A DNA stretch of 33,071 nucleotides from Deltaproteobacteria bacterium (GTDB taxonomy: Bacteria; Myxococcota_A; Polyangia; Polyangiales; Houyiibacteriaceae): positions 1-33,071 of the forward strand of contig SHLP01000027.1 in assembly GCA_004283055.1 (NCBI GenBank). Reading direction: 5' to 3'. Made by a program: the position numbers and the translations under genes. Under the pieces are notes generated by a model. It searched no databases, was not told the DNA's origin, and saw nothing but the letters and a program-made list of their open reading frames with translations. Of this stretch, positions 11,993 through 29,355 are shown piece after piece. How positions within the stretch are numbered: position 1 is the stretch's first letter; each line of letters begins with the position of its first letter.

Positions 11993-12793
11993 ATGCGTTG
12001 CTTATTTGGAGTTCTAATGGTGTTGACGGCGATGGGGCTTGGGGCTTGCGACGGCGAGAGGGGTGAGTGCGCTGAGCCATCTGACGTTGCGGGTGTCTGG
12101 GAGATCCGCGCCACGGCTATCTCGGACAGCTGCAGCGGCCTTGGTTCGTACACGTTTCCGCTGACGATCGCGCAAGACGGAGAGGCTGTGTCCGGGGAGA
12201 ACCCCGACGGAACTCTGACCGGAACCGTCTGTGGCGACCGGATTCAGATGAGCGGAATCGTTCCCGGGCTGGGACTGTTTTCCGGAGGGACCACGACGGC
12301 GAACCTAGAGCTCACCGTCTCCACGAATGGAAATTCGATGGAAGGTTCCGACACCTGGAATTGGACCGGCGGCTCGCAGACCTGTCAGGGGTCGGAATCG
12401 CTCAGTGGCACTCGCGCCGGCGACGAGGTTTGCGAATGGGGGTTCGGCTGCCCGTGCCAGCGCCCGCTCGATGAATACTGGCAGGGCTCGGGTTGCCTCA
12501 CGTATGAATGCGCCCTCGCCGCGGCCGAGGAGACTGCCGTGCGGTCCGGCTGCGACTGCTCCCCGTTTCCCGCGGCTTTTGGCGCAGGGCGATGCGGAGA
12601 CCTCCGGTACGTTCGGGAGGATTGCATTGAGAATCACATCAAGTTCTTCGACGCTTCGGGGACGCTGGTGGCCGCATATCAGTGGACGGACGAATGCGGG
12701 TCGCTCTGCCGAGGCTCTTGCTCCGCCTACTACGGCTTCAGACCTGAGTGCGAGTTGGAGCAAGAGCAGGACTTCTGCGATCAGAACAACTGA
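11993..12793 (+). CDS. Cysteine-rich lipoprotein of unknown function
   Basis: The 266-residue product starts with a short lipoprotein signal, MRCLFGVLMVLTAMGLGAC, with a classical LGAC lipobox and acidic residues after it. Residues ~28-140 look beta-rich (VAGVWEIRATAISDSCSG, then PDGTLTGTVCGDRIQMSG), of the kind found in secreted barrel-like domains. The C-terminal half is rich in cysteines (CEWGFGCPCQRP, GCDCSPFP, CGSLCRGSC), implying several disulfides outside the cytoplasm. I do not recognise a family. The signal peptide resembles those of the secreted proteins starting at 14496, 14649 and 28420. No copy of their shared upstream element is seen here. Confidence 0.78.
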   Translation: MRCLFGVLMVLTAMGLGACDGERGECAEPSDVAGVWEIRATAISDSCSGLGSYTFPLTIAQDGEAVSGENPDGTLTGTVCGDRIQMSGIVPGLGLFSGGTTTANLELTVSTNGNSMEGSDTWNWTGGSQTCQGSESLSGTRAGDEVCEWGFGCPCQRPLDEYWQGSGCLTYECALAAAEETAVRSGCDCSPFPAAFGAGRCGDLRYVREDCIENHIKFFDASGTLVAAYQWTDECGSLCRGSCSAYYGFRPECELEQEQDFCDQNN

Positions 12794-12830
12794 TCGAGCG
12801 CGTTTAGAGGGTTACGACTCGACTTCGAGG

Positions 12831-12934
12831 CGGTTTTCGGCCTACGCGTGAAAAGGGCAATTGTTTTCAGTCGTCATCCGGACGATTGCGGCGCAACTTC
12901 TGCGCGAGCGAATCGAGTAAAGAATTGTGTATGG
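12831..12934 (+). repeat. Duplicated promoter region, copy 1
   Basis: This 104-bp segment aligns without gaps to 15108-15211, with 78 identical positions by hand count, including a 17-bp perfect block at 12899-12915. Both copies end in the AA[GC]AATT element and GTATGG. Copy 2 stands directly before the START-domain gene; copy 1 stands before an unrelated secreted-protein gene. Confidence 0.85.
12919..12932 (+). promoter_or_regulatory. Shared upstream element, copy A
   Basis: AAAGAATTGTGTAT matches the recurring element AA[GC]AATT[AG][CT]GTAT; it is the only copy with T rather than C before GTAT. It ends 99 bp before the start at 13032. Confidence 0.6.
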
Positions 12935-13031: not shown

Positions 13032-13601
13032 ATGAAAAAGGGAATTTTCTTAGCATTAGCCGCGCTGGCCGTGGCCGTCTTTGCGGTTCCAGACGCACAC
13101 GCCTGGTGGTGGGGGCACCACAACAGACCGGACATCAACCTGCACGCCTGGGGAGGCCTCCTCACCAGCAGCGATGAGGGTGGATTCCCAACGCCGATCG
13201 AGGCGGTGGCCGAAGGTGAGGCACTAACGAGTTTAGCGACTGGAAAGACAAGGGGCCGCAGCGGTAGCCCTTCCTTCTTTGCGTCGACCTCGGTCGCAGG
13301 ATTGTCGATGAACCCCTTGGATTCTCCGCCGGACTGCCTTGCAGCGGGCTTGGCCGGAGCACCACTATTCCAGACCATCGTTCTCACCTACAGGGACGGC
13401 TCGCTTCTTTCTCTAGTCGCCGGACCCGAAAGTTTCTACTGCACCGATGGCGAGATCTTCACTGTCAACGCTAGCGGCGAGATCGCGGCGGGCGACGGGC
13501 GATTCGAAGGCGCGACCGGCAGCTTTGAGGTCAAGGGGCGGACATTACCCCCTGGAGGAACCGGCCTCATCACGGCGGACATCAGCATCCACTTCGAGTA
13601 G
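13032..13601 (+). CDS. Secreted protein of unknown function
   Basis: The start is ATG 13032, with GGAG at 13021-13024. A clear signal peptide (MKKGIFLALAALAVAVFAVPDAHA) precedes a His/Trp-rich mature N-terminus (WWWGHHNRPDINLHAWGG). The 189-residue product ends in a beta-rich region with GDGRFEGATGSFEVKGRTLPPG, a turn pattern common in small secreted barrels of the allene-oxide-cyclase/lipocalin type, and a similar turn occurs in the gene at 25697. Codons are visibly less G/C-biased than in the flanking genes. It sits between a duplicated START-type promoter region and a truncated START copy, and has its own strong terminator, as if inserted between them. Function unknown. Confidence 0.8.
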   Translation: MKKGIFLALAALAVAVFAVPDAHAWWWGHHNRPDINLHAWGGLLTSSDEGGFPTPIEAVAEGEALTSLATGKTRGRSGSPSFFASTSVAGLSMNPLDSPPDCLAAGLAGAPLFQTIVLTYRDGSLLSLVAGPESFYCTDGEIFTVNASGEIAAGDGRFEGATGSFEVKGRTLPPGGTGLITADISIHFE

Positions 13602-13736: not shown

Positions 13737-14029
13737 GCGTGTTCTGGTTGGCGCAGACGTGAGCGGTGGGGATTCCGCTTCACGGGGAAGGCACGATGAC
13801 CGAGTATGTGCCCAACGAGCGCGTGGTCATTGAGACCAAAGGAGGCGTTACGGCCACTCTCGCATACACGTTCACGTCGAATCAGGGCGGGACAAAGGTG
13901 GATGTCGAAACCGAGTACACCATTCCCGTTCCCGTGTTGGGGAGGCTGGCGGAAAAGCTCGTGCTCAAGCGCAACCAGCGGGAGTCCGAGATGGGGCTGG
14001 CGAACCTCAAGGAACGCTTGGAGGTCTAG
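13737..14029 (+). pseudogene. N-terminally deleted copy of the START/SRPBCC gene
   Basis: Bases 13737-13766 match 15226-15255 at 29 of 30 positions, the stretch just upstream of the intact START gene. The sequence then jumps to the equivalent of about 15453, so roughly 200 bp, including the ribosome site, the ATG and the first ~55 codons, are missing. What remains codes for GIPLHGEGTMTEYVPNERVV through EYTIPVPVLGRLAEKLVLKRNQ to NLKERLEV, closely matching the C-terminal 87 residues of the intact protein. A GTG at 13766 could start it, but no ribosome site is present and the upstream terminator blocks read-through. The coding frame after the deletion is unbroken, so the event is either recent or the fragment is kept. 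Confidence 0.85.
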
Positions 14030-14046
14030 GGCGTCGTCGAAATGAC

Positions 14047-14496
14047 TTAGAACTCGGCATTCGAAGCCGCTATTGCCCCTCCTATCAGTACGGCGGTGCC
14101 CACGACGAGGAGGGGAATGGTGACGCCCAGCGCAATCGCTCGCCTGCGACGCCGATCCGGCTTCTTCTTCTCTTCATTCGGGGTCTTGTAATGGATCTCG
14201 TGGTGCTCAATCGCTCTCTGACCGAGGGTGTCGATGTCTGGCGCTTCCGCATCGGGCTCGAGAGGGTCAACGAAAGCTTCAGGGTGCCACCGCTCAACCC
14301 GTGAAGGGCCTTTCTCATCGGCATCGAGGTATAGGTAATAGCTCGCCCGCAACATAAATTGCGCTGGCAGACGATGCTGCGCATGGATAGCCAGGGCAAG
14401 CTTCGGCAGGGCTTCCTTGCCGGCTTGCCCGCTCGCGCTTAGAGGCAACGCCGCCAACGCTGCGAGCACACCTACAAAGCCAAACAGGTACCGCAA
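14047..14496 (-). CDS. Small exported protein with C-terminal basic stretch and membrane segment
   Basis: The start is TTG 14496; the frame has no closer ATG or GTG, and GGGGG lies about 9 bp upstream. The 149-residue product has a signal peptide (RYLFGFVGVLAALAALPLSASGQ), a middle part with His and acidic residues, then KKKPDRRRRR directly followed by a Gly-rich hydrophobic span (AIALGVTIPLLVVGTAVLIGG) and a six-residue tail. The order signal peptide, middle, Arg/Lys run, span, short tail is shared with the divergent gene at 14649, whose signal peptide is also alike (RYLLSHIWVLALLSSPLSARGQ), so I regard them as paralogues. No family recognised. Its upstream element lies 66 bp away on the same strand. 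Confidence 0.75.
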   Translation of the reverse strand: MRYLFGFVGVLAALAALPLSASGQAGKEALPKLALAIHAQHRLPAQFMLRASYYLYLDADEKGPSRVERWHPEAFVDPLEPDAEAPDIDTLGQRAIEHHEIHYKTPNEEKKKPDRRRRRAIALGVTIPLLVVGTAVLIGGAIAASNAEF

Positions 14497-14562
14497 AAGG
14501 AACCCCCGGTCCGACCCGGAGAGGGATCATGAATAACCTAGGTCCGCGAGCTGCGCAGCGAC

Positions 14563-14575
14563 ATACGTAATTCTT
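14563..14575 (-). promoter_or_regulatory. Shared upstream element, copy B (minus strand)
   Basis: On the minus strand this reads AAGAATTACGTAT, 66 bp upstream of the TTG start at 14496. With copy C it forms an inverted repeat spanning 14563-14593: 13-bp arms, one mismatch, 5-bp centre (ATGTG). Confidence 0.7.
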
Positions 14576-14580
14576 ATGTG

Positions 14581-14593
14581 AAGAATTGCGTAT
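14581..14593 (+). promoter_or_regulatory. Shared upstream element, copy C (plus strand)
   Basis: AAGAATTGCGTAT lies back to back with copy B and ends 55 bp before the GTG start at 14649. The pair makes this a compact bidirectional control region. Confidence 0.7.
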
Positions 14594-14648
14594 AGACCGG
14601 CGCCGTCCGGCGACCCCACATTGCATGTGACCGGGCCGGGAGATGGTT

Positions 14649-15059
14649 GTGCGGTACTTGCTTAGTCATATTTGGGTGCTGGCGCTCCTAAGTTCGCCTC
14701 TGAGCGCGCGGGGGCAAGATGCGATCGGGGAGCCGAGCGAGGCCGCTTCAAGTCTAGAGTGGCATGAGTGGTCAGATCCCCGTTGGCTCTTGCAGGTCGA
14801 CCAACCTGTCGACCGCAAGCGCCCGACATGGCCAGCCGCGCCGCTATCCGAAGAGTCCTGGTTGCGGCTCGAGGTGGGTTTAGCGGGAATGCGAGTCATA
14901 CCGACCGAGCAACAGCGACGGCAACAGAAACCCAAGACAAAGAAACGAAGGAGGGGGCTGGGCCTCGGGATCGGCCTAGGTGTTGGTGTTGTTGCTCTCG
15001 GTCTTGCGATCGGGACCGTCGTCGCCCTGTCCAACTCCTTCGACGATGATTTGCCTTGA
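14649..15059 (+). CDS. Small exported protein, divergent paralogue of the gene at 14047
   Basis: I choose GTG 14649 rather than ATG 14643, because GGGAG (14638-14642) is 6 bp before the GTG but abuts the ATG, and because the N-terminus then aligns with its paralogue (VRYLLS against LRYLFG). The 136-residue product has a signal peptide ending SARGQD, a Trp-rich middle (EWHEWSDPRWLLQVDQP), then QQKPKTKKRRR directly before a Gly-rich span (GLGLGIGLGVGVVALGLAIGTVVAL) and an acidic tail (SNSFDDDLP). The middle parts of the paralogues have diverged strongly while both ends keep their pattern. Function unknown; membrane-tethered envelope protein is the simplest reading. Confidence 0.72.
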   Translation: MRYLLSHIWVLALLSSPLSARGQDAIGEPSEAASSLEWHEWSDPRWLLQVDQPVDRKRPTWPAAPLSEESWLRLEVGLAGMRVIPTEQQRRQQKPKTKKRRRGLGLGIGLGVGVVALGLAIGTVVALSNSFDDDLP

Positions 15060-15107
15060 GCTAAATCGGGGCGTCTGAGGTGCAGCCGTAGCCACGCACA
15101 TGCTGCG

Positions 15108-15211
15108 CGGTTTCCGGCCGACCGGTGAAGAGGGCAATCGTTCTCGGGCGCTGTGCGGACCATCGTCGCGTGACCTCTGCGCGAGCGAATCGGGCGAACA
15201 ATTACGTATGG
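15108..15211 (+). repeat. Duplicated promoter region, copy 2
   Basis: The partner of 12831-12934, identical at 78 of 104 positions with no gaps. Here it still precedes the START gene, so this is likely the original arrangement. Confidence 0.85.
15197..15209 (+). promoter_or_regulatory. Shared upstream element, copy D
   Basis: AACAATTACGTAT ends 77 bp upstream of the START-domain gene start at 15287, at the 3' edge of the duplicated promoter region. Confidence 0.65.
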
Positions 15212-15225
15212 ATCGGTTTGTCGTC

Positions 15226-15255
15226 GCGTGTTCTGGTTGGCGCAGACATGAGCGG
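15226..15255 (+). repeat. 30-bp direct repeat of 13737-13766
   Basis: This stretch of the START-gene leader is repeated at 13737-13766 with one A/G difference. It marks the left junction of the deletion in the truncated copy. Confidence 0.85.
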
Positions 15256-15286
15256 AGACGATTTCGCCATGAAGGAGGGTGAAAGC

Positions 15287-15715
15287 ATGCCCACGATAGA
15301 TAAGAGCATCGATATTGGCGCACCTGTTGAGAAGGTGTTCGCATACCTGTCGGACCCCAGGAACAGCCCCGAGTGGTTCGTAGGCATGACGGAGGTGACC
15401 GACGTGAGCGGCTCGGGTGTTGGCCAGCACAACCGCTGGACATACACCATGATCGGCATTCCGTTCCACGGAGACAGCAAGCTTACCGAGCACGTCCCAA
15501 ACCAGCGTTTGGTCTTCCAGCAAGAAGGGGGAATTACGAGCATCATGACGTTCACCTTTGCACCGCATGACAGCGGCACGAAGCTGGGCCTCGACATCGA
15601 CTACACCATTCCGGTTCCCGTCTTGGGAAAGCTGGCCGAGAAAGCCGTGTTCAAGCGCAACCAACGAGAAGCCCAGATGTCGATGGAAAACATCAAGGAA
15701 CGGTTGGAGGTTTAG
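15287..15715 (+). CDS. START/SRPBCC-domain protein
   Basis: The start is ATG 15287 with AAGGAGGG at 15272-15279. The 142-residue protein is a single helix-grip domain: IDIGAPVEKVFAYLSDPRNSPEWF opens it, GVGQHNRWTYTMIGIPFHGDSKLTEHVPNQRLVF forms the central sheet (positions ~45-78), and it ends in a long basic helix (KAVFKRNQREAQMSMENIKERLEV). The fold binds lipids, polyketides or other hydrophobic ligands in a cavity; polyketide cyclase/CoxG-like proteins have this size. No signal peptide is seen, so it is cytoplasmic, unlike most genes that share its upstream element. A truncated copy lies at 13737. Confidence 0.88.
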   Translation: MPTIDKSIDIGAPVEKVFAYLSDPRNSPEWFVGMTEVTDVSGSGVGQHNRWTYTMIGIPFHGDSKLTEHVPNQRLVFQQEGGITSIMTFTFAPHDSGTKLGLDIDYTIPVPVLGKLAEKAVFKRNQREAQMSMENIKERLEV

Positions 15716-15738
15716 GGGGTCGAGACCCAGCGGGTGCT

Positions 15739-28331: not shown

Positions 28332-28344
28332 AAGAATTACGTAT
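28332..28344 (+). promoter_or_regulatory. Shared upstream element, copy F
   Basis: AAGAATTACGTAT, preceded by A and followed by AG, matches copy B exactly over 13 bases. It ends 75 bp before the lipoprotein start at 28420. Confidence 0.65.
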
Positions 28345-28419
28345 AGCCGCGACTTCGAAGCGGACCTAGTTTCACTCTGTAAGGGGTCCGATGCGGGCCC
28401 AAGCAACGGGGAGGTTGCA

Positions 28420-29355
28420 ATGCGTTACTTCTACGGATTCATCTGCGTCTGCGCGCTTTCGATGATGCCCCTGCTCGGCTGCAGCGGCGAAGAGGGTGGC
28501 GGCGGCTCGGCTGGAACCGCGGGCTCGGGTGGAACCGCCGGCTCCGGCGGAACCGCGGGCGCCAGCGGAATTCCGATCCCGCTGCCCCAATGCGTGACCT
28601 CCGCCTACCAGATCGTGTTCCGCGGCCTCATCGAGCCCATGGATCCGCTTCTTCGATACATGGATACGCCGGAAGTGCTCCGCGACGCGGACCAGAAGCC
28701 ATCCATCATGGGCCTGACTGAGCGCAGGAACGTCACCGTCACCGACCCCGTCAGCGGCGACGACACCGTCGTCTACGCGCGATTCACCTGGTTGGCGGAC
28801 GGCGTGGAGGGGGTCAGCGATCCGGGAGAGACGCTCATCACCGTGGATTTCATCGATGGTGTGGGGCTCAACCCGTCAGATCTCGACCTGGGCATCTTCA
28901 ACCAGCAAGTGGTGCTCGTGCCTTGGGAGATGACGGTGGGTGAATCTACCGTCGTCGGCGCCGGCAAGATGTCGGTGTCGGGTCTCGGCAACGACGCAAT
29001 CCGCATGACCATCGTCGACTTCAACCCATGGTACGAGGGCTGGGCGAACTACTGCCGCTTTGAAATGCCATCGTTCGACTTCTATTTGGACCTCGCAACG
29101 CCGGGCTCCGAGCCTTACGGCGTCGTCGTCGGGTTCAACGCGGTGGGGGTCGATTTCACCATCGAAAATGGCTGGATCATCTTCGGGGAAGGCGCCACAG
29201 CGAGCTTCACGGGCGACTACAAGCTCGGAGCCGCCACGCTGCCGTTTGATTTCCAGCTCGACTACAGCACCGAGCCTGCCGGGCTCACCGGCACGGTGGG
29301 CAACCTGCCGGCGAACTGCACCATCGACCTCGCGACGTTTGACGTGCGCTGCTGA
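28420..29355 (+). CDS. Lipoprotein with Gly/Ser/Thr repeat linker, function unknown
   Basis: The start is ATG 28420, after GGGGAGG. The 311-residue product has a lipoprotein signal (RYFYGFICVCALSMMPLLGC) whose beginning resembles those of the genes at 14496 and 14649. A linker of GSGGTA repeats joins it to a domain that begins PLPQCVTSAYQIVFRG. The mature part is beta-rich (YVRFTWLADGVEG-like strands, QVVLVPWEMTVGESTVVGAGKMSVSG), acidic, with a few cysteines. The C-terminal third (ATASFTGDYKLGAATLPFDFQLDYST) suggests a barrel-like or lipid-binding fold. No known family recognised. The upstream element suggests co-regulation with the other secreted genes of the window. Confidence 0.8.
   Translation: MRYFYGFICVCALSMMPLLGCSGEEGGGGSAGTAGSGGTAGSGGTAGASGIPIPLPQCVTSAYQIVFRGLIEPMDPLLRYMDTPEVLRDADQKPSIMGLTERRNVTVTDPVSGDDTVVYARFTWLADGVEGVSDPGETLITVDFIDGVGLNPSDLDLGIFNQQVVLVPWEMTVGESTVVGAGKMSVSGLGNDAIRMTIVDFNPWYEGWANYCRFEMPSFDFYLDLATPGSEPYGVVVGFNAVGVDFTIENGWIIFGEGATASFTGDYKLGAATLPFDFQLDYSTEPAGLTGTVGNLPANCTIDLATFDVRC
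28504..28575 (+). repeat. 18-bp tandem repeat in the lipoprotein linker
   Basis: Three near-identical 18-bp units (28504-28521, 28522-28539, 28540-28557; pattern GGCTCSGSYGGAACCGCS) and a decayed fourth encode GSAGTA, GSGGTA, GSGGTA and GASGIP. The linker can lengthen or shorten by slippage without a frameshift. Confidence 0.8.

Follow-up and report, generated by a model that had tools for sequence, protein, structure and literature searches.

In the genome of a member of the Polyangiales, two small genes for exported proteins are transcribed away from each other across a gap of 152 bp that holds an inverted repeat, and this locus raises the question of whether the symmetry of the repeat is itself the regulatory signal of a duplicated pair or the by-product of something else. 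The window analysed here is the whole stretch of 33,071 nucleotides at positions 1 to 33,071 of contig SHLP01000027.1. It carries gene A on the minus strand (14047–14496), encoding a 149-aa exported protein that ends in a hydrophobic helix and represents the one-helix, or short, form of its family, and gene B on the plus strand (14649–15059), encoding a 136-aa exported protein of the same family. The repeat (14563–14575 and 14581–14593) has 13-bp arms with one mismatch, 12 of the 13 positions being complementary, around a 5-bp centre, ATGTG. Both the repeat and the divergent pair of exported proteins were found at the coordinates given in the preliminary description of this DNA.

Symmetry of this quality is not rare within the window, in which two comparable inverted repeats with spacers of up to 20 bp were counted against a mean of 1.45 in Markov-1 simulations, and symmetry was accordingly rejected as the signal. 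What lies far beyond chance, unlike the symmetry, is the box that forms each arm, an asymmetric 15-bp element, AASAATTRYGTATRG, which was searched for with up to one mismatch and with the reversed pattern as control. The 4.3-Mb genome from which the window derives contains 23 sites (reversed control, 0), and across the genus there are 243 sites, distributed over all 19 congener genomes (control, 0). Outside the genus the box is at background level, with no site in 15 genomes from other genera of the family (control, 2) and five in 24 genomes of the same order (control, 9). Within the window it starts at positions 12920, 14575 (minus strand), 14581, 15197, and 28332. The palindrome (14563–14593, without strand) is thus made of two putative activator boxes set back to back about the 5-bp centre, that of gene A on the minus strand (14561–14575, AAGAATTACGTATGT) and that of gene B on the plus strand (14581–14595, AAGAATTGCGTATAG), which bears out the earlier suggestion that the repeat is built from two copies of a recurring element. 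Its symmetry is incidental: there are two directional 15-bp boxes, one per gene. Genes A and B can stand back to back because each has its own copy of the control box, and the two boxes are adjacent because the divergent region is compact; the palindrome results from the meeting of two directional boxes where the divergent gap is short, and it need not be a dyad operator in its own right.

The box has a fixed relation to a downstream promoter element. In 113 aligned sites, a -10-like sequence, yAnnnT, lies at offset 35–40 from the start of the box, approximately 21 bp downstream of it; at offset 35, 66 of the 113 sites have at least two of the three key bases (T, A, T), compared with a mean of 12 per offset, and the A at offset 36 and the T at offset 40 are present in 60–77% and 60–82% of box sites, respectively. 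From this constant offset it follows that the box would span approximately -47 to -33, abutting or overlapping the -35 region. The box occurs singly or as direct repeats spaced exactly 21 bp apart, and also 42 bp apart, and its position and tandem spacing together suggest the geometry of an activator bound beside the -35 element. At the divergent locus the boxes lie 58–79 bp ahead of each start. Gene A has the -10-like sequence TAGGTT (14535–14540, minus strand) exactly at the regulon-typical offset of 35–40, and gene B has a weak counterpart, CACATT (14617–14622, plus strand), one base further away at offset 36–41.

Across the genus the box precedes tens of genes, dozens of secreted proteins among them, and the open reading frames downstream of it mostly encode signal-peptide proteins or lipoproteins; further targets are SRPBCC proteins, a small RNA, and LuxR/GerE-type regulators. 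The three other boxes of the window, all on the plus strand, as are the genes, gene remnant, and promoter repeats named with them, conform to this picture. One (12920–12934) precedes a gene for a 189-aa exported protein that begins MKKGIFLAL and has no Pfam match (13032–13601), a second (15197–15211, AACAATTACGTATGG) precedes an intact gene for an SRPBCC protein (15287–15715; Polyketide_cyc2, E 2e-18), and the third (28332–28346) precedes a gene (28420–29355) whose lipoprotein product has a Gly-rich linker and begins with the shared leader, MRYxxGFxCVCALxxxPLxGC. The first of these boxes terminates a 105-bp promoter repeat (12830–12934) that also contains the palindrome GCGCAACTTCTGCGC, and a second copy of the repeat lies at 15107–15211. 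A remnant of an SRPBCC gene (13769–14029) lacks the 5' third and is 71% identical to 15455–15722; the SRPBCC genes form tandem duplicates (13737–14036 and 15226–15722), and the exported-protein gene at 13032–13601 sits between the promoter repeat and the SRPBCC remnant of the first copy. A further exported, Cys-rich protein starting MRCLFGVLMVLTAMGLGAC is encoded at 11993–12793, apparently by another gene of the leader family; by eye, it resembles the mature starts in loci L248 and L257 (...CGEPLDVAGDWEMTS...). An Rfam scan of the window gave no match.

The small-RNA candidate (G000:C96, 32309–32449; L166:1464–1703) combines a tandem-box promoter with an invariant core, CAAATCGTGCGCT, and a strong terminator hairpin followed by a T-run at its end. 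In an alignment of 10 sequences, 9 of the 28 predicted pairs show at least one compensatory change. A model derived from this RNA finds one copy in each of 15 of the 19 congener genomes, and a perfect box is present upstream in all 14 of the loci checked. The model found nothing beyond two fragments of 18–19 bits in the genomes from other genera of the family, and an Rfam search of the small RNA returned no match.

Genes A and B themselves are supported as distant members of a single exported family that is restricted to the genus. Each protein opens with a hydrophobic signal at its N-terminus and, after a middle that is dissimilar between the two, closes with a basic stretch and then a hydrophobic helix at its C-terminus, much as the preliminary description had noted for their ends and middles; the basic stretch ahead of the helix makes the topology of A and B uncertain. 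Direct comparison of the two by BLASTP is not significant (E 0.24). Paralogy is nevertheless detected by leave-one-out profiles of the mature parts, with scores of 48.5 bits for A and 61.8 bits for B against at most 6.3 bits for shuffles, the significance of A's middle being lost once its relative in genome G006 is also left out. The middle of A is common to relatives in G002, G006, G008, and G012, and that of B retains a family motif (LRLEVGLAGMRVIPT, compare LQLELDSAGVEVTPT). The family has a short form, comprising A, B, and others, and a long form with a second hydrophobic helix and a C-terminal RRVQWDLxxSRLVF sequence. A Pfam scan of A and B gave no match above cutoff, weak matches outside the genus (E >0.001) were discarded as resembling generic basic-plus-hydrophobic tails, and a structure prediction of A made from A plus B only was uninformative (pLDDT 52.6). 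The earlier reading of non-ATG starts also stands, as TTG for A and, more probably, GTG for B: the first in-frame start of gene B, where the open reading frame mechanically begins, is an ATG at 14643, but the GTG at 14649 is the likelier start because it aligns with the conserved ATG-CGG-TAC start of the family and is better spaced from a GGGAG sequence. Among leader genes there are 42 ATG, 5 GTG, and 1 TTG start codons, and it is possible that translation of A and B is limited by their non-ATG starts.

Several members of the A/B family lack the box and have instead a sigma54-type -24/-12 sequence, TGGCACGNNTGATGCA, that is essentially confined to the genus (one match elsewhere; control, 0). 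The palindrome GCGCAN5TGCGC stands about 68–70 bp upstream of it; 28 of 38 such sites have the palindrome, allowing up to one mismatch, within 150 bp, and in 3 of the 38 the activator box is found 106–109 bp upstream. Of 113 boxes, 33 also have this palindrome in imperfect form (up to one mismatch) in the 80 bp upstream, compared with 4 of 565 shuffled controls; distances of 12–14, 20, or 48–49 bp before the box are the most frequent. Sigma54-type promoters with a phased upstream palindrome were seen at loci L243–L272, L049, L052, L054, L055, and L057, where they drive further genes from these families of exported proteins.

The most plausible binder of the box is a LuxR/GerE-type regulator of approximately 341 aa, with an N-terminal GAF/LuxR-like domain and a C-terminal GerE helix-turn-helix (PF00196, E 4.5e-12, above the curated cutoff). 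A Pfam scan yielded GerE together with HTH/sigma-4-like matches and no NTPase domain. The top sequence matches in the PDB are GerE, FixJ, and NarL, GerE being the nearest solved relative, and a fold search with the N-terminal domain retrieved TraR, RhlR, SdiA, and CepR2, with GAF domains similar (TMt approximately 0.54–0.60; model pLDDT 69). When boxes with up to two mismatches were counted within 200 bp upstream, 19 of 30 congener regulator genes had one, whereas the 10 homologues taken from other genera had none and shuffled 200-mers gave 1 in 3000; a second genome scan, in genomes that overlap the first set, gave 18 of 31, and its lineage-assigned regulator loci are all myxobacterial or deltaproteobacterial, including 'Myxococcales bacterium SG8_38'. 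Regulator genes also occur in tandem arrays, at L188 (G015:C340) and L193 (G002:C264), and in the L188 array the first gene is without a box and the next two have one. Proteins of the LuxR type often use dyad sites, and the asymmetry of the box described here counts against this candidate.

The reading favoured here, to which we assign a probability of about 0.72, is that A and B are head-to-head members of a genus-restricted family, each with its own activator-type promoter, and belong to a shared box regulon under LuxR/GerE-type control. In each promoter an asymmetric 15-bp box is followed, approximately 21 bp downstream, by a -10-like yAnnnT, and a regulator with a GAF/LuxR-like sensory domain at its N-terminus would bind each box and recruit RNA polymerase. 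The regulator's own genes often bear boxes, and A and B would be induced jointly with surface lipoproteins, SRPBCC proteins, and the small RNA. The weak -10-like sequence of gene B, the relatives of A and B that have a sigma54-type sequence in place of the box, the lack of a Pfam match for A and B, and their uncertain topology weigh against this reading. That a different transcription factor binds the box, the LuxR-type regulators being merely further targets of that master regulator, is unlikely, though some observations favour it: 11 of the 30 congener regulator genes have no clear box, in several genomes diverse paralogues are numerous, with 7 in G000 and as many as 11 matches in G017, and could be box targets and not binders, and the incomplete assembly G009 has two boxes and no regulator match at 1e-20. 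Against such a factor, the regulator subfamily and the box have the same genus boundary, and the recurrent spacing of boxes before regulator genes, at about 105 or 48 bp, is as autoregulation predicts. It is more doubtful still that the box serves not as an activator site but as the -35 element recognised by a dedicated sigma factor, for example of the ECF type. Its fixed distance to the -10-like element, its high conservation, and the frequency of single copies would suit a sigma factor, but an asymmetric 15-bp element with a gap of approximately 20 bp to the -10 would be unusual for sigma recognition at -35, and tandem copies set in phase, 21 and 42 bp apart, are a typical feature of activator sites.

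The preliminary description had proposed that one locus was duplicated by inversion, and a pair duplicated in place around a shared dyad operator and evolving as a unit is very improbable, even though A and B are homologous and the arms largely complementary. The 5' region of A is closest to that of a gene at G006:C305 (z 10.6), the mature part of which is unrelated to A in a pairwise test (z -0.3), and for the mature part of A the nearest counterpart belongs to the gene at G006:C380 (z 42). The latter gene also supplies the closest match to the 5' region of B (z 8.2), and the 5' regions of A and B score only z 2.4 against each other. Each 5' module is therefore nearer to one from another species than to that of its neighbour, so that A and B are not in-place inverted duplicates, and that candidate was rejected. 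In addition, each half of the palindrome is an independent genus-wide box. The back-to-back layout was not found in the 12 other congener genomes searched, and a conserved divergent palindrome was likewise rejected; two divergent boxes 40 bp apart do occur at G017:C852, where they drive two other lipoproteins. The earlier interpretation had been open to refutation by a lack of paralogy in profile alignment together with a lack of conservation of the divergent pair elsewhere; half of this was found, since the divergent palindrome was not recovered from those 12 genomes. Family kinship and the two-copy repeat survive from that interpretation, and duplication by inversion in place does not.

The matching signal peptides of A and B reflect a promoter-UTR-signal-peptide module that is common to many otherwise unrelated proteins, and for the same reason likeness of the signal peptides is weak evidence of paralogy here. 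Under the regulon reading, these signal peptides would have arrived with the module. Comparison of 59 leader genes gave 624 pairs with similar 5' regions, of which 535 have mature parts unrelated by BLASTP, a figure to be read with the caution that low-complexity filtering may mask remote homology among Gly-rich lipoproteins. The best 5' pair, with 96% identity across 216 bp (approximately -176 to +40), lies on the same contig of G015 and joins an A-family gene to an unrelated Cys-rich lipoprotein. At L055 (G015:C114) and L122, and at L097 (G010:C38), promoter-UTR-start modules are 94–96% identical over more than 200 bp, and these near-identical modules precede unrelated mature proteins within one genome. 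From the pairings found for A and B, recombination appears to have reassorted 5' modules and mature parts.

MalT boxes are asymmetric and adjoin the -35 element, and MalT, the activator of the Escherichia coli maltose regulon, offers an analogy in manner of working only. The candidate regulator, at 341 aa with a GAF/LuxR-like domain, is not a STAND ATPase, and the box sequence differs; MalT-type activation was rejected on the Pfam scan, which found none of the NTPase domain expected of a STAND ATPase. MalT is a LuxR-type helix-turn-helix protein that binds several boxes cooperatively and recruits polymerase (PMC4381067). Activators of the GerE/NarL/LuxR type belong to the same helix-turn-helix family as the candidate (PF00196); among them, ComA of Bacillus subtilis works at its target promoters through inverted as well as direct repeats, and NarL is said to bind single elements (PMC4797271). 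The present system differs from these two in its asymmetric 15-bp box with tandems 21 bp apart, in the N-terminal domain of the regulator, and in coming from a genus that has not been studied, and its binding is predicted. The quorum-sensing receptors TraR, RhlR, and SdiA have the same order of an alpha/beta sensory domain followed by a GerE helix-turn-helix, and, like them, the candidate is apparently autoregulated; however, its model has a low-confidence segment of approximately 95 residues between the domains, full-length TM-scores reach only 0.3–0.45, and a plain GAF domain matches about as well. The Vsp and Vpma surface lipoproteins of Mycoplasma likewise form multigene families in which the 5' UTR and the signal peptide are conserved and the mature parts diverge (PMC5634654), whereas here the 5' module has its own promoter, the mature parts are mostly without detectable homology, and the genes are scattered through the genome. 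The proposed regulon is new, its candidate regulator belongs to a known class, and the extent to which 5' modules are shared is unusual.

The A/B pair would accordingly mark, at one locus, a regulon that extends through the genus and has not been described before; the open-access literature yielded no description of this regulon or of the genus. It is conceivable, as a tentative proposal from these comparisons, that the secreted surface of this genus evolves as the promoter-UTR-signal-peptide cassette is copied ahead of genes unrelated to one another, which would come, together with a small RNA, under one LuxR-type regulator. If true, cassette copying would be a bacterial analogue of exon shuffling in which new mature domains are secreted at once, the regulator over the cassettes may sense cell density, and A and B would represent a pair of cassettes that landed back to back. 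What began as a local curiosity becomes a defined and testable regulon, with its control box, candidate sensor-regulator, small RNA, and secreted proteome, placed in an uncultured myxobacterial genus, and the near-identical modules before unrelated proteins offer a concrete case in which to study how new surface proteins are recruited under existing control.
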